A stretch of 18,076 bases of DNA, taken from positions 1 through 18,076 of the forward strand of contig JAILZY010000070.1 of NCBI GenBank assembly GCA_023512255.1. Reading direction: 5' to 3'. Below, one piece after another: positions 11,078 to 18,003 of the stretch. The notes beneath the pieces were generated by a model. The model did no database searches. It was not told where the DNA came from and saw only the letters and a list, made by a program, of their open reading frames with translations. Position 1 is the first letter of the stretch, and each line of letters opens with the position of its first letter. The DNA is from a bacterium (GTDB lineage: Bacteria; SZUA-182; DTGQ01). A program made the position numbers and the translations under genes.

Positions 11078-11175
11078 GCTGTTATAATTTTTATTAATAT
11101 ATTTATTAAATAATTAATATACTGACTAATATTAATATCCTGCCTAACTACCCATTTTCATTAATGTATTACCTA

Positions 11176-11325
11176 CTACACTTTTGCACTTTTTATAACC
11201 GTTTCACTACCAGACCACTTTTATCGTCATTACTGCTATCATCAATAATTCTGCAATTAAAGAGTCCCCGGCCACAGTCAGTGGAGTAGGAATGGGGGTG
11301 AATTTTCGAAAGCTTTCCCCTATCT
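11176..11325 (+). repeat. Composite dispersed repeat, shared with 17587-18003
   Basis: The left part (CTACACTTTTGCACTTTTTATAA, then TTTCACTACC, GACCACTTTTATCGTCATT) matches 17589-17643. The right part (TCAATAATTCTGCAATTAAAGAG through GGGGGTGAATTTTCG and AAAGCTTTC) matches about 17926-18003. The intervening body of the MITE family 2 element seen at 17618-17910 is missing here, so this is a deleted version of the same nested repeat. The minus-strand ORF across it (11193-11399) is repeat-derived. The preceding 11078-11175 is AT-rich with no recognisable terminator. Confidence 0.7.
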
Positions 11326-11637: not shown

Positions 11638-11651
11638 AATTAAAAGAGGTT

Positions 11652-11772
11652 CGCTCTTATATATCAGACACCATAAACCCTATATCAGAACAACAATAAA
11701 CCCTCGAAGGGGCTTAGGGGCTTAGCTCTTATTAGGGTTATGTCTCTCAATGGTAGCTAATAAATAAGAGCG
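11652..11772 (-). mobile_element. MITE family 1, copy 3 (121 bp), perfect 8-bp target duplication
   Basis: The same element as copies 1 and 2 is present in reverse orientation. CGCTCTTATATATCAGAC is at the left and AGCTAATAAATAAGAGCG at the right. It is flanked on both sides by exactly AAGAGGTT (11644-11651 and 11773-11780). A small internal duplication (GGGGCTTAGGGGCTTAG) accounts for its extra length. It ends 55 nt before the NRPS start codon, so it makes up much of that gene's proximal upstream region. Confidence 0.88.
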
Positions 11773-11827
11773 AAGAGGTTAAAAAAGAGGGCTTAGAATT
11801 AGAAGAATTAGGATTGGAGAAGGTTTT

Positions 11828-12490
11828 ATGAGCATGTTCTCGCTTTATCCCCTAACTTATCCCCAGCGGGCCATTTGGCTCACTGAAAAGGTTTACCCCA
11901 ACACCAGCATCCATAATATAACCTGTTCGGTAAAGATCATGGGAGAAGTTGACTACTCCCTTCTTTCTGAGATGATCAATCTCTGCCTCGAGCAAAACGA
12001 CGGCCTTCGCTTTCGCCTCATCGAACATAACGGCCAGCCGAAGCAGTATGTAAGCCCCTATACTCGACGGGAGATCCCCTTTTTCGACTTCAGCCAAAGC
12101 ACTGGGCCGGAAGAACAATTATATGCTTGGGATAGAAAGATCGCCGCTTCGCCGATGAAGCTCATCGAGAGCGATCTTTACGACTTTGCCCTTTTCCGCC
12201 TGAGCAGTTCTGTGGGTGGGTTTTATATCAAGCTTCACCATCTCATTTCTGATGCCTGGGGACTGGCCGTTACGGTGGACTGGATTTTGAAGAACTATTT
12301 TGAAAACTGCTCAAAGAAGAATATTGAGGACTGCTCAAAAGGGAACGGCTCAAAGCAAAGGTGGGAGGCTGAAGACGGGCGGGGTTTGGTTGAGGAATCG
12401 GGCTGGGAAGATAATGAGGAAGACTTAGGGAGAAGCTCTCAAGAAGAGGAAGAGGAAAAAAGAGAAAGGGGAAATGTCCTTCTTATTTAG
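11828..12490 (+). CDS. NRPS, first part: N-terminal half of condensation domain
   Basis: These 220 residues are the start of a non-ribosomal peptide synthetase. YPLTYPQRAIWLTEKVYP (residues 5-22) is the C1 motif. The catalytic C3 motif is HHLISDAWG, with H137, H138 and D142 (the HHxxxDG pattern, Ala replacing the usual Gly). After residue about 160 the chain becomes a low-complexity Lys/Asn/Glu-rich linker (SQEEEEEKRERG) and stops at TAG 12488. The C domain resumes one frame back at SYLDYLLSEQ (from 12481), so this is half of a split gene. The start ATG follows a GGAGAAGG sequence. A C domain with no carrier protein before it suggests a starter domain that acylates the first amino acid, or one taking its donor from another protein. 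Confidence 0.85.
   Translation: MSMFSLYPLTYPQRAIWLTEKVYPNTSIHNITCSVKIMGEVDYSLLSEMINLCLEQNDGLRFRLIEHNGQPKQYVSPYTRREIPFFDFSQSTGPEEQLYAWDRKIAASPMKLIESDLYDFALFRLSSSVGGFYIKLHHLISDAWGLAVTVDWILKNYFENCSKKNIEDCSKGNGSKQRWEAEDGRGLVEESGWEDNEEDLGRSSQEEEEEKRERGNVLLI
12469..12475 (+). other. Frame change point; in-phase X XXY YYZ heptamer GGGAAAT
   Basis: The NRPS reading frame must move by -1 between 12418 (where the downstream frame opens) and 12490 (stop of the upstream frame). Within that overlap, G GGA AAT has the X XXY YYZ pattern in phase with the upstream frame, 13 nt before its stop. A purine-rich AAGAGGAAGAGG lies about 15 nt upstream. A slip there would give GGG AAA TGT CCT TCT TAT TTA GAC, joining directly to SYLDYL. 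A single-base loss in the A6 or G4 runs, real or from assembly, explains the data equally well. Confidence 0.3.
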
Positions 12491-15400
12491 ACTATCTTCT
12501 CAGCGAACAGGCCTTTACCAGTTCAGCAAGGTGGCAGAAAAATAAAGCCTTCTGGGAGGAGAAATTCAGCACTATCCCTGAGCTGACAGACTTAACATCC
12601 GCTCCCTTAGGCCAGCGCCGGCTGGAGGCGGTAAGGAAAACCTTTTTGCTCGATCAAGCCTTGACGGCTCAGGTCCGCGGCCTCTGCCGTCAGCTGGGCA
12701 TTTCCGTGCCTGTCCTCTTTCAAGCCCTCCTCTTTACCTATCTCTACCGCCTAACCTCCCAGCACGATCTGATCATCGGCACTCCCCTTCTGAACCGCTT
12801 AACTCCGGCTGAAAAAAACACCATTGGTATGTTTGTCCATAACCTCCCCCTGCGCCTCTATGTTGATGAAGCTAAACCCTTTGGGGATTTTGTCCATGAG
12901 GTAGCTAAAGAGGCAAGAGCAGTGTTAAAGCATCAAAGATATCCCTATGAGCTTTTACTGCGCTATGTCAGGCAAAGACACAACCTTCAGTCCACTCTCT
13001 ACAGCCTTGTCCTATCGCCTATTAACGCCGCGCTGGATAGTTATAATAGACAGCATGTCAGGGCGAGGTGGCTTTTCCCTGAAAGCCAGCCTGAGCCTTT
13101 GATCATTCACCTAACTGATCCTGCATCCTCTGATCCTGCGGGCGAAGGCCGCCTGATGATGCACTACGACCACCGGCTCGATCTCTACTCTCCGGCCGAT
13201 ATTGAGCGCCTGCATCAGCACCTGCTGAATCTTCTAACCGATGCGGCTCATCATCCTGAAAAGAGGCTTTATGAGCTGAAGCTCCTCTCAGAGGCGGAAG
13301 AGCGGCAGATTTTATACGAATTTAATCAAACCAGCCTAGATTATCCTCAAAAAGATAAGACCGTGCACCAGCTTTTTGAAGAGCAGGTCAAGCGGACGCC
13401 TGAAAGCCCTGCGCTGGTCTTTAGGGGAGAATCCTTAACCTACCGCCAGCTCAATGCTCGGGCTAATCAGCTGGCCCGGCGGCTGAGGGAAAAGGGCGTC
13501 GGCCCGGATGATATTGTCGCCCTTATTCTGCCCCGCTCGCTGGAGATAGTCATCGGCATGATGGGCATTTTAAAGGCCGGCGGAGCCTATCTGCCCATAG
13601 CCTTCGATTATCCGCTCGAGCGCATTAAATACATGCTGGAAGACTCGAGGGCTAAGCTCATTATCACTCAAGAGAGCCTCTATCGAAAGATCCACCAGCA
13701 GATTAAGCCTACAGGGCAGTCTGAGGCAGGCCTTAAGGGCGAGGTCATCTTTCTCGACCAGGATTTCTTTTCAGAGAATGAAAATGAGGCCGCAGACCTG
13801 CCGAATCAAAATCAGCCTAAGGATCTGATCTATGTTATCTACACCTCAGGCTCAACCGGCCGCCCCAAGGGAGTAATGATCGAGCACCGGGGTGTCAGCA
13901 ACTATCTTCAGGCTGTCCATCCCATCCAGCAGGCTCAGGCAGGCCAAACTTTACTATCTATCAACAGCGTTTCTTTTGATATGTTTTCTATGGAGATTCT
14001 TTTTTCGCTCTGCTTTGGGCTGAGAATCATTTTAGCCAGCGAGCCAGAGATTCAAAATCCAAGGCTTTTAGCCCAGCTGATAGAAAAATACCGCCCTGAG
14101 ATCATCGTAGCTGTTCCCTCCTTTGCCAGCCGCTTCTTGGATGATAAATTTTGGGCTGATCAAAAGGAGAAAACCAGCCAGAACTTACAGGATGCAGGCC
14201 AGCCGCAGATTAAAACCTTTTATTTAGGAGGAGAGCCGGTTACGGTTGAGCTGATAAACAAATTAAAGCAGAGATTTCCAGGGGTTAAAATAATTAATGC
14301 ATATGGTCCTACAGAGATTACTATGGCCTGCACTGCCAAGGATATTTCAGCCGGTGAGCCGCTGATAGGCCGTCCCCTAGCCAATTATCAAATTTTCATT
14401 CTCGATCAATACCAACATCCTCTTCCCGTCGGCACAGCAGGTGAGATCTGCGTCAGCGGTGTAGGTCTAGCTCGGGGCTACCTAAGACAGCCTGAGCTTA
14501 CCAGCCAGCGCTTTGTGCCTCATCCCTGGGTGAGGGGAGAGAGGATTTACAAAACAGGCGATCGGGGCAGGTGGCTGCCGAGCGGGGAGATAGAGTTTTT
14601 GGGAAGATATGATAATCAGGTAAAAATTCACGGCCAGAGGGTAGAGCTTGGAGAAATTGAACACTGCCTTTTGGGGCACGAAAAGATCAAAGAGGCTGTG
14701 GTAGCAGTTGAAGATGACGGCAGAGGCCAAAAGCAGTTGTGCGCCTATCTAGTGGCTGAAGATGGGCTTAAGCTGGCTGAGCTCAAGCTTTTTTTAGGTG
14801 AGAGACTGCCTCGCCACATGATACCGACGCGCTTTTGCCGGCTTGCCAAGATTCCCCTCACCGCTAGCGGGAAAATCGACCGCCGGGCGCTCGCTCAGAC
14901 AGCTGAGGCGGTTGAGGCTGAGACTGAATACGAAGCCCCGCAGGGAGGGGATGAGGAGCGGCTGGCGGCTATTTTCGGCGAGGTGCTCGGCTTAGAGCGG
15001 GTGGGGGCTAGGGACAGCTTCTTTGATCTTGGGGGTGACTCTTTGAGATTTATGGATCTGGCGGCAAGGATTTATCAGGAGTTCGGCTTTGGCCTGGGGC
15101 TGCAGGATTTTTGGGCAAAGCCTACGGTCAGAGATACAGCTAGATGGCTCGCTCAGAAGAAAGAGAGGGAGAAAAAGAATATCAGGCCGCAGGATAATAT
15201 CAGCCCGCAGGATCAGCTTCAGTCGGGGCAAGACGGCGGCAGGCGACTGAGGGAAGAGGAGATAGACGCTGGGGGCGGCGGCCGCGGTAAGAGCTGTGAA
15301 GTTAACAGCCGGTCCTATTTTAACCCGTCCTATTTTGACTTTTTTAAAATGCTCTCTGAGCCTCCAGCCAGACTGATTGAGGAGGGGAAACTGCCGAGGC

Positions 15401-16545
15401 TGACTTCGGCGGCTTTGGTTTATCTGCCGGATGAACTGCCGGCGGCTGTTAAGGACGATTTGGGAGATGAGCCTCTGCTCTACGGTCTAATTGAGACCGG
15501 CGGCTGGGGACAGATTGGGCTGGTAGCTGTTCCTGTGTTTGCTCGGGAGCTTTACAGCCATAAGGAGAGGCTAATTAACTTATGCCTTAAGGCAGTAGAG
15601 CTGGCTGGTTACCTCGGGGCTAGAGTAGTCTCCTTAACAGGCTTAATCCCCTCAGCTACCGACTACGGCCGGGCAGTCAGCGGCCGGCTTGGGGAGAGGG
15701 GGCTTGAGGTTCTGGTCAGCACAGGGCATGCGGCTACGGTGGCGGCTGTGCTTTTAACGCTGGAGAGACTGCTTCAGACCAGCCAGCGGGACCTTGGACT
15801 AGAGCGGCTGGCGGTGGTAGGGTTAGGGTCGATCGGGGCCGGGGTTGTAAGGTCCCTGCCGCTTTTATTTTCTCCTCAGCCTGAGTTGATTATCTTGTGC
15901 GATCTGGCGAGCAGGCATGAATTTTTGACCAAACTCAGGCAGGAGCTTAAGGATGAGGGCGGCTTTAAAGGCTCGATTGAAATTGCTCTGGCTGATGGCC
16001 CCCACTTGCCCGATAAGGTCTATCAGGAGGCCACGCTGGTTGTCGGAGCTTCCAACATAAGCGGCATCTTAAGGGTAGCTGAACTGAGATCAGGTGCTTT
16101 GATAGTTGATGATTCGGCCCCGCACTGCTTTTCTCCGCAGGAGGCTGTCGCTAGGCTGATAGAGAAAAATGATCTTCTGTTTACGGAGGGAGGCGTTTTA
16201 GAATCGCCCAGGCCACTGAGACGGCAGGTTTATTTACCAGCAGGGAGCGGGCTGACAGTTCTAACCAGCTTTGAGAGGCACTTTTTTGCCAGCAGTGAGA
16301 TTACGGGCTGTATTTTGTTAAGCCTTCTTTCAGCCAGCTATCAAGACCTGCCGCCTACCTTGGGTCAGCCGACAGGGCAGGAGTGCTGTCGCTACTACCT
16401 AAAGCTTAAGGAGCTGGGATTTAGAGGTGCGGCTGCCCATCTTCAGAATTTCGTTCTGCCTGAAAACTCGATCGAAAGGTTTAGGAGCATCTATAACCAG
16501 CAGTTTTTAGCCCTCGGCGGCGGTGGTCGAAGAAAAGCTGGTTAA
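12475..16545 (+). CDS. NRPS, main part: C (rest)-A-PCP-AAR-like reductase
   Basis: About 1,355 residues continue the NRPS. No ATG, GTG or TTG start occurs in this frame before TTG 12646, and C-domain sequence already begins at 12481, so it is not an independent gene. Numbering from 12646: C5 IGMFVHNLPLRL; a full adenylation domain with A3 YTSGSTGRPKG (399-409), A5 NAYGPTE (551-557), A7 YKTGDRG, A8 GRYDNQVKIHGQRVELGEIE (653 on) and the A10 lysine K743 in ASGKIDRR; and a carrier domain with LGGDSLRFMDL (phosphopantetheine Ser799). After a polar linker, about 410 residues resemble acyl-ACP reductase: STGHAATVAAV (1025 on), Rossmann motif GLGSIG (1059-1064), EGGVLESP and FERHFFASSEI. This would release the thioester as an aldehyde. 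The Cys expected after the GGV motif is replaced (Pro1188); C1161 is a nearby alternative. The exporter genes lie upstream on the same strand. Confidence 0.88.
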   Translation, partial: CPSYLDYLLSEQAFTSSARWQKNKAFWEEKFSTIPELTDLTSAPLGQRRLEAVRKTFLLDQALTAQVRGLCRQLGISVPVLFQALLFTYLYRLTSQHDLIIGTPLLNRLTPAEKNTIGMFVHNLPLRLYVDEAKPFGDFVHEVAKEARAVLKHQRYPYELLLRYVRQRHNLQSTLYSLVLSPINAALDSYNRQHVRARWLFPESQPEPLIIHLTDPASSDPAGEGRLMMHYDHRLDLYSPADIERLHQHLLNLLTDAAHHPEKRLYELKLLSEAEERQILYEFNQTSLDYPQKDKTVHQLFEEQVKRTPESPALVFRGESLTYRQLNARANQLARRLREKGVGPDDIVALILPRSLEIVIGMMGILKAGGAYLPIAFDYPLERIKYMLEDSRAKLIITQESLYRKIHQQIKPTGQSEAGLKGEVIFLDQDFFSENENEAADLPNQNQPKDLIYVIYTSGSTGRPKGVMIEHRGVSNYLQAVHPIQQAQAGQTLLSINSVSFDMFSMEILFSLCFGLRIILASEPEIQNPRLLAQLIEKYRPEIIVAVPSFASRFLDDKFWADQKEKTSQNLQDAGQPQIKTFYLGGEPVTVELINKLKQRFPGVKIINAYGPTEITMACTAKDISAGEPLIGRPLANYQIFILDQYQHPLPVGTAGEICVSGVGLARGYLRQPELTSQRFVPHPWVRGERIYKTGDRGRWLPSGEIEFLGRYDNQVKIHGQRVELGEIEHCLLGHEKIKEAVVAVEDDGRGQKQLCAYLVAEDGLKLAELKLFLGERLPRHMIPTRFCRLAKIPLTASGKIDRRALAQTAEAVEAETEYEAPQGGDEERLAAIFGEVLGLERVGARDSFFDLGGDSLRFMDLAARIYQEFGFGLGLQDFWAKPTVRDTARWLAQKKEREKKNIRPQDNISPQDQLQSGQDGGRRLREEEIDAGGGGRGKSCEVNSRSYFNPSYFDFFKMLSEPPARLIEEGKLPRLTSAALVYLPDELPAAVKDDLGDEPLLYGLIETGGWGQIGLVAVPVFARELYSHKERLINLCLKAVELAGYLGARVVSLTGLIPSATDYGRAVSGRLGERGLEVLVSTGHAATVAAVLLTLERLLQTSQRDLGLERLAVVGLGSIGAGVVRSLPLLFSPQPELIILCDLASRHEFLTKLRQELKDEGGFKGSIEIALADGPHLPDKVYQEATLVVGASNISGILRVAELRSGALIVDDSAPHCFSPQEAVARLIEKNDLLFTEGGVLESPRPLRRQVYLPAGSGLTVLTSFERHFFASSEITGCILLSLLSASYQDLPPTLGQPTGQECCRYYLKLKELGFRGAAAHLQNFVLPENSIERFRSIYNQQFLALGGGGRRKAG
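15310..16500 (+). other. C-terminal acyl-ACP-reductase-like domain of the NRPS
   Basis: This part of the NRPS does not look like the usual SDR-type thioester reductase (no N-terminal GxTGFLG dinucleotide motif). The order of motifs matches cyanobacterial AAR as I recall it. A small-molecule-binding N-terminal part is followed by a helix with STGHAATVAAVLLTLERLL (AAR: TTGNTHTAYVICRQVEAA), then AVVGLGSIGAGVVRSL (AAR: AVVGATGDIGSAVCRWL), a LIVDDSAP strand (AAR: LIDGGYP), a LFTEGGVLES segment (AAR: YVLNGGVVEH), and a late FASSEITGCILLSL helix (AAR: FACFAEAMLLEF). The AAR nucleophile lies two residues after VVE in VVEHCF and is not conserved here. The assignment rests on motif order only. Confidence 0.65.
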
Positions 16546-17061: not shown

Positions 17062-17370
17062 TTAATTCTTTTGCTTGCTCAATTCTATTAATATTTGCAT
17101 GATATTATCTAATCTTTGATTTGTTTGATCGAGTCTCTGGTTCATTTGATCGAGTCTTTGATTTGTTTGATCGAGTCTCTGGTTCATTTGATCGAGTCTT
17201 TGATTTGTTTGATCGAGTCTTTGATTTAAATATTTAAAATCAGATTCTTGTTTGTCCCTGAGTTCTGTTATTTCTTTTTTTATTTCTTCCGTCCGTTCAT
17301 CTACAATTTCATAAATCATTTCCAATGATACTTTTTTTATGATTTTTGCAGCTAAATTTCTCATCTTCAA
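17062..17370 (-). CDS. Small coiled-coil protein with alternating heptads
   Basis: This 102-residue protein of unknown function has no signal peptide or membrane helix. Residues 1-50 are a charged helix-prone segment (IIKKVSLEMIYEIVDERTEEI...). Residues 51-88 consist of strict heptads that alternate RLDQTNQ and RLDQMNQ, with Leu at one core position and Thr or Met at the other, ending LDNIMQILIEL. This predicts a regular parallel coiled coil. In DNA, five 21-bp units alternate exactly (17114-17218), a 42-bp period. The listed start is TTG 17370, which has AGAAG 7 nt upstream; ATG 17364, two codons on, is an alternative. It may be a self-assembling adaptor or a partner of some neighbouring system, but nothing in the context says which. 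Expansion of the repeat by slippage is likely. Confidence 0.6.
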   Translation of the reverse strand: MKMRNLAAKIIKKVSLEMIYEIVDERTEEIKKEITELRDKQESDFKYLNQRLDQTNQRLDQMNQRLDQTNQRLDQMNQRLDQTNQRLDNIMQILIELSKQKN

Positions 17371-17480: not shown

Positions 17481-17601
17481 CTACACTTTTGCAGAAATTT
17501 CTTAACGCCTTGAAATCCTTGAAAATTACCTCTAATAGCAAATCCAGCAAAATCAAGGGTTCGGAGAAAAAGTGCGAAAACATAGCAACTACACTTTTGC
17601 A
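17481..17601. repeat. Direct repeats of CTACACTTTTGCA around a 95-bp spacer
   Basis: CTACACTTTTGCA occurs at 17481 and again at 17589, and also once at 11176 in the related repeat. The spacer and the bases back to 17371 carry small overlapping ORFs on both strands with no recognisable domain. I see no gene in 17371-18076. Confidence 0.5.
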
Positions 17602-17617
17602 CTTTTTATAATCATTT

Positions 17618-17910
17618 CACTACCGGACCACTTTTATCGTCATTCCCGCCAAAGTGGTAATCAAAGTGGTAATCCATGTATGGTTGCAGCAACCCTCTGG
17701 ATTTCCGCCTATGAGGGAATGACAAGAGCAGAAGCAGCAGCCCCCCACCTTGCATCTTTGAACTCCCGCCTATGCGGGAATGACAAGAGCAGAAGCAGCA
17801 GCAAAACCCCTTGCATCTCTGAACTCCCGCCTATGAGGGGATGAGATGAAATTGCCTGCACTCAAGAAGGCATATAAAAAACCGGACGATAAAATATGTC
17901 CGCTAGTAAG
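17618..17910 (+). mobile_element. MITE family 2, expanded form, perfect 10-bp flanking repeat
   Basis: The left end CACTACCGGACCACTTTTAT and the inverted right end (CTTACTAGCGGACATATTTT on the minus strand) bound the element. It is flanked on both sides by exactly ATAATCATTT (17608-17617 and 17911-17920). Compared with the 154-bp form it carries a 12-bp duplication (AAAGTGGTAATC) and an internal array with a 61-bp period: CCGCCTATG starts at 17705, 17766 and 17827, with GGGAATGACAAGAGCAGAAG in the first two units. It has no plausible gene. Confidence 0.78.
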
Positions 17911-17924
17911 ATAATCATTTGAAA

Positions 17925-18003
17925 TATCAATAATTCTGCAATTAAAGAGTCCCCGGCCACAAGTCAGTGGAGTAGGAATGGGGGTGAATTTTCGAAAGCT
18001 TTC
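17925..18003 (+). repeat. Dispersed repeat, second copy of 11238-11325 segment
   Basis: TCAATAATTCTGCAATTAAAGAG, CCCCGGCCACAAGTCAGTGG, AGTAGGAATGGGGGTGAATT and TTCGAAAGCTTTC match the right part of the repeat at 11176-11325 almost base for base. It continues directly from the flank of the MITE family 2 insertion. Confidence 0.75.

Follow-up and report, generated by a model that had tools for sequence, protein, structure and literature searches.

Which chemistry releases the product of the small nonribosomal peptide synthetase (NRPS) at this locus, and to which family does its terminal domain belong? The window, meaning the whole stretch of DNA analyzed, is an entire contig of 18,076 bases from the 3.8-Mb genome, in 172 contigs, of an uncultured bacterium. 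A plus-strand open reading frame (ORF 12646-16545) codes for the end of a condensation (C) domain, an adenylation (A) domain, a peptidyl carrier protein (PCP), a linker of low complexity, and a 411-residue terminal domain. Judged from its sequence, the synthetase is a single-module NRPS, C-A-PCP, that ends in a carmabin-type TAD. The motif order that a sequence-only reading had reported after the A and PCP domains (STGHAATVAAV, GLGSIG, EGGV, FASSEI) is present in this ORF as described. That reading was also right that an SDR-type reductase is missing, as PF07993 has no match in the NRPS protein (Pfam scan) or on the contig (whole-genome search). The features of the synthetase gene are as follows.

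11846-12331, + strand: condensation domain, first part (ORF 11828-12490); PF00668 positions 5-169, HHLISDAW active-site motif
12418-12490, + strand: 73-nt overlap of both open frames, within which a -1 shift would make the two C-domain parts continuous; A6 at 12456, G4 at 12468
12466-13314, + strand: condensation domain, second part (PSYLDYLLSEQ...); PF00668 positions 169-456
13375-14874, + strand: adenylation domain; PF00501 and PF13193, residues 244-743 of ORF 12646-16545; TIGR01733 6.5e-126
14956-15150, + strand: peptidyl carrier protein; PF00550 3.9e-16, residues 771-835, DLGGDS phosphopantetheine site
15310-16545, + strand: terminal domain resembling acyl-ACP reductase (AAR), carmabin TAD family, stop codon included; PDB 9e4s/9e4x E ~1e-80, model pLDDT 90, VIA Z 52.3 to 9e4x
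15820-15837, + strand: GLGSIG dinucleotide-binding loop; G171, G173, and G176 invariant in 44 sequences
15901-15903, + strand: Asp198, end of Rossmann strand 2; invariant in 44 sequences
16309-16311, + strand: Cys334 (EITGC), probable acyl-accepting cysteine; conserved in 45/45, paired by hhalign with AAR Cys294

Pfam has no family for the terminal domain (15310-16545), and searches of PHROGs and PADLOC gave no match. The only NCBIfam match of the window domain is a weak one to PigE (E 5e-7). Across the family, PigE is matched by all 44 members and the long-chain acyl-ACP reductase model TIGR04058 by three, weakly; the window domain has no match to the latter at E 0.1. Two PDB constructs of one protein were matched by sequence far above chance. 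An AlphaFold model built on 44 sequences (the window domain and 43 relatives) reached a pLDDT of 90, compared to 36 for a single-sequence run. The best structural matches to this model in Foldseek and VIA were entries titled 'TAD from Carmabin Biosynthetic Pathway' (9e4s/9e4x/9e56; Z 51-52, 36-37% identity), with an rmsd of 1.9 over 380 residues for 9e4x. Cyanobacterial acyl-ACP reductase ranked second (Z 29-30, 18-19% identity; Foldseek E 2e-16; VIA Z 29.8 to 6jzy over 310 residues), and the remaining Rossmann dehydrogenases scored Z 14 or lower. The AAR-like fold suggested earlier is therefore borne out in the model, with the carmabin TAD ranking above AAR. We conclude that the window domain adds a new, divergent member to the carmabin-type TAD family, a known and recently solved family that branches off from the acyl-ACP reductase fold. 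It is a rarely noticed release domain. A literature search for the PDB entries and for TAD found no open-access paper on the carmabin TAD structure. The group that deposited the structures has reportedly described a putative terminal amidation domain.

Comparison with named systems places the domain more closely. The solved carmabin TAD (9e4s, 9e4u, 9e4x, 9e50, 9e56) is approximately 90% identical to Moorena loci. It shares with the window domain the position after A-PCP, the whole-domain fold, the full-length sequence match, the NAD loop, and a cysteine equivalent to its Cys2238. Unlike it, the window domain is 37-39% identical, lies outside the cyanobacteria in the tree, and sits on a single-module synthetase. 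The terminal domains of VatR and HcaD are grouped with the carmabin TAD as nearest systems, a likeness to the window domain that is drawn from a published description rather than from their sequences. AAR (6jzq/6jzu/6jzy/6jzz, TIGR04058) has in common the fold (Z 30), the catalytic cysteine Cys294, and a glycine-rich dinucleotide loop. It differs in that the window domain is 19% identical, approximately 70 residues longer, and fused to a carrier protein, falls below the TIGR04058 cut-off, and lacks Arg189/Arg193 and Tyr247, with Asp in place of the NADPH-binding Arg189. The N-terminal domain of PigE and the C-terminal domain of TamH, both thioester reductases, are distant AAR-type homologs whose substrates are thioesters bound to a carrier or CoA; they differ in being fused to aminotransferases, and their match to the window domain is weak and in sequence only. 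SDR-type thioester reductases (PF07993) resemble the domain in NRPS-terminal place and NAD(P)H use but have no sequence match in the window protein.

Cys334 is conserved in all 45 sequences compared, and the alignment of 44 sequences shows no variation in the GxGxxG loop or at Asp198. A profile of seven cyanobacterial AARs, compared by hhalign, pairs Cys334 with Cys294, to which the acyl group is attached in AAR (PMC7089970), so the AAR catalytic cysteine is kept. One carmabin TAD entry contains a disulfide between Cys2238 and dephospho-CoA; counting residues puts Cys2238 at the cysteine of an IMGC motif, which aligns with Cys334. Asp198 suggests a preference for NAD(H) over NADP(H), as read from the alignment, and the NAD and NADH complexes among the carmabin TAD entries agree with an Asp at the end of strand 2. 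The phosphate of NADPH is bound by Arg189/Arg193 in AAR, of which Tyr247 is also a feature (PMC7089970). In an alignment that is gapped near strand 2, the window domain has Asp198 for Arg189, Ala270 (DDSAPHC) for Tyr247, and His140 for Asn131 (TGH motif), differences from which we infer a possible functional meaning. The Asp and His are family-wide, as is the lack of Tyr247, which sets the family apart from AAR proper. Weak matches of the relatives to several Rossmann families could suggest a non-catalytic domain, dehydrogenase-like or structural. We regard this as highly improbable given that the cysteine and NAD loop are invariant, that the motifs SLTGLIPSATDYG and VDDSxPHCF are strongly conserved in 44 sequences from many phyla, and that the domain occupies the terminal place of a thioesterase.

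Fusions of A, PCP, and an AAR-like domain were sought in other genomes by scanning GTDB species genomes with a two-sequence alignment (the window domain and the PDB sequence), and they were found in tens of genomes. The scan yielded 49 loci, mostly fused, from at least 11 phyla, with the caveat that many of the records are MAGs and that taxonomic assignments could be in error. Cyanobacteriota, Pseudomonadota, Chloroflexota, Bacteroidota, Planctomycetota, Verrucomicrobiota, Gemmatimonadota, Bacillota, Nitrospirota, Neomarinimicrobiota, and Electryoneota carry TAD loci, as do Acidobacteriota by partial sequence. In most loci a C-A-PCP module has the domain at its C-terminus, and in at least 30 it directly follows an NRPS carrier. 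The synthetase of the cultivable Thiothrix caldifontis DSM 21228 (L030) likewise has the order C-A-PCP-TAD. The domain ends a PKS in three loci (L036, L053, L055), and others (L043, L047/L048, L057) encode it as a stand-alone protein next to NRPS or PKS genes. Recurrence in most of the 49 loci indicates that the fusion is neither an assembly artifact nor unique. In a sample of 386 genomes, strong full-length matches occurred in two genomes besides the window's own. The tree pairs the window domain with a sequence from a Clostridia MAG (SH-aLRT 99), a join of two long branches and thus of a kind prone to artifact, and places the pair apart from the cyanobacterial branch. Two Rickettsia records (L047:425-1630 and L048:7788-8987) code for a separate TAD-like protein adjoining NRPS genes (2,585 aa in L048); an NRPS with a TAD-like protein is unusual for small endosymbiont genomes.

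Is the synthetase in the window intact? The sequence-only reading missed one point. The A, PCP, and terminal domains share one frame, but the C domain starts in a different one (11828-12490) and is whole only with a -1 shift. The C domain is complete in Pfam positions (5-169, then 169-456) yet divided between two frames, and an acidic low-complexity insert (about 12332-12465) comes before the break. The gene may thus be broken or misread. A decaying, non-functional synthetase, which would be compatible with either release chemistry, is possible though doubtful. It would account for the -1 frame break and insert in what is the sole C domain detected genome-wide, no coordinated biosynthetic genes are close by, and the preceding gene block also occurs in a relative from the same genus, where no NRPS is found at that place. 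Against decay, the A, PCP, and terminal domains run undamaged through 1,299 codons and retain every key residue, and sequencing commonly miscounts a run such as A6 by one base.

In the same-genus genome (G001), phosphodiesterase, phosphatase, MacA-like, ABC, FtsX, and TolC-like genes occur in the same order with no NRPS after the TolC-like gene. A functional tie between the MacAB-TolC genes and the NRPS was considered and is doubtful, as the block occurs without an NRPS in that genome. Two direct repeats, one of 78 bp (99%) and one of 57 bp (95%), flank the NRPS within 11171-11317 and 17588-18003. The copies of the longer repeat are as follows.

11241-11317, + strand: 78-bp direct repeat, left copy flanking the NRPS; 99% to 17926-18003
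17926-18003, + strand: 78-bp direct repeat, right copy; 99% to the left copy

No further copies of either repeat at that length were found elsewhere in the genome, and no empty-site sequence was found in G001. The NRPS was likely gained by insertion. Other repeats occur in the window. An element of approximately 120 bp at 11650-11774 (also at 2116-2228), with the inverted ends TTCGCTCTTATATATCAGACACC ... GGTAGCTAATAAATAAGAGCGAA, has at least 40 genome copies with 86-93% identity and is a dispersed repeat of MITE or hairpin type. Six 21-bp tandem units at 17073-17240 code for 7-residue repeats, perhaps a coiled coil, in a minus-strand ORF (17062-17370).

Given the fold (established by way of a predicted model), the cysteine, the NAD-binding motif, and the fusion, two release chemistries were weighed. 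Domain order suggests that the C-A-PCP part would build an N-acyl aminoacyl thioester, with the C domain adding the acyl group to a single PCP-bound amino acid. The arm of the PCP would hand this chain to Cys334, so that it forms a thioester with the enzyme next to bound NAD(H), and the chain would leave as a C-terminal primary amide with its nitrogen from ammonia, perhaps derived from glutamine. By analogy with related systems, acceptance of the chain by Cys334 and its departure as a primary amide is the reading that we lean toward, by a modest degree. Acyl transfer to Cys334 is suggested by the AAR mechanism and the Cys2238 disulfide entry, and amide formation by what related pathways produce. 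Carmabin, vatiamide E/F, and hectoramide B, whose synthetases terminate in this domain, each have a primary amide at the C-terminus (PMC10949194, PMC6164609), with carmabin A bearing a C-terminal amide (PMC6164609), and in HcaD and VatR a terminal domain after the PCP has been assigned to terminal amidation (PMC10949194). Assembly-line C-terminal amide formation was described in 2024 as mechanistically unstudied, with ammonolysis suggested (hectoramide paper, PMC10949194). Several points count against amide release in the window. A conserved NAD site is needless for plain ammonolysis, no glutamine- or ammonia-handling genes were seen on the 18-kb contig, and the frame break in the C domain may leave this copy inactive. 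The chemistry may also have diverged, since the window domain is distant in sequence from the carmabin TAD and apart from the cyanobacterial branch. The sorbamide pathway was rejected as a parallel; it is unrelated, and its enzyme is of the asparagine-synthase type (PMC13284220).

The other chemistry is reductive release, in which Cys334 would take the chain and an N-acyl amino aldehyde would form by NADH-dependent reduction of the thioester, maybe to be modified further by other enzymes. The sequence-only reading had proposed such an aldehyde, and this was not borne out as the preferred product: of the two options it is the less likely and, in our estimate, has a limited chance of being correct. 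The AAR fold with the aligned catalytic cysteine and the invariant NAD site would fit a reductase, as would the match of every family member to PigE, whose AAR-like N-terminal part reportedly reduces a thioester to an aldehyde (PMC8341465); the same reduction has been proposed for TamH (PMC9594044). Weighing against it, the nearest solved family and the sole pathways with known products yield amides, and neither a class III aminotransferase nor an aldehyde deformylating oxygenase is among the 25 commonest neighbor families listed. A small fatty-acyl amino amide is thus a more likely product than an aldehyde.

Neighbors of the relatives bear on amide release. NAD synthetase ties as the commonest family among the 25 listed. 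In four related cyanobacteria of the Crocosphaera/Cyanothece group (L029, L032, L033, L034), a second full-length glutamine-dependent NAD synthetase directly follows the TAD synthetase; these extra copies are 67-70% identical to the other copy in the genome, both compared against the L029 protein. In Robbsia (L043), a divergent second NAD synthetase is two genes from the separate TAD. The extra genes are located as follows.

L029, 9269-10948: extra glutamine-dependent NAD synthetase
L032, 9200-10873: extra glutamine-dependent NAD synthetase
L033, 9269-11035: extra glutamine-dependent NAD synthetase
L034, 1873-3567: extra glutamine-dependent NAD synthetase
L043, 11500-13539: extra glutamine-dependent NAD synthetase

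L060 has its single NAD synthetase copy near the TAD gene, and a glutaminase (PF04960) is present in the TAD locus of L023. The four cyanobacterial loci form one tree branch, so there are approximately three independent NAD synthetase cases. The copies were considered as suppliers of ammonia alone, and loss of the synthetase site was looked for; the glutaminase and synthetase active sites both appear intact, and the idea was set aside. The extra enzymes may thus supply NAD, ammonia, or both. They are a hint toward amide release and could supply NAD instead of ammonia. A further reading is a redox-neutral NAD cycle: an AAR-fold domain, widespread in NRPS and PKS release, would reduce the thioester to an aldehyde, ammonia would add, and the hemiaminal would be oxidized to the amide, with ammonia or NAD provided in some clusters by a dedicated glutamine-dependent NAD synthetase. 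This scheme is speculative, and we give it a low probability.

The TAD family has one solved structure, from a cyanobacterial pathway, yet it extends to at least 11 phyla, on NRPSs, on PKSs, or as separate proteins, and Pfam is without a model for it. A small single-module synthetase such as the one in the window would be a handy system for the question of amide versus aldehyde release.
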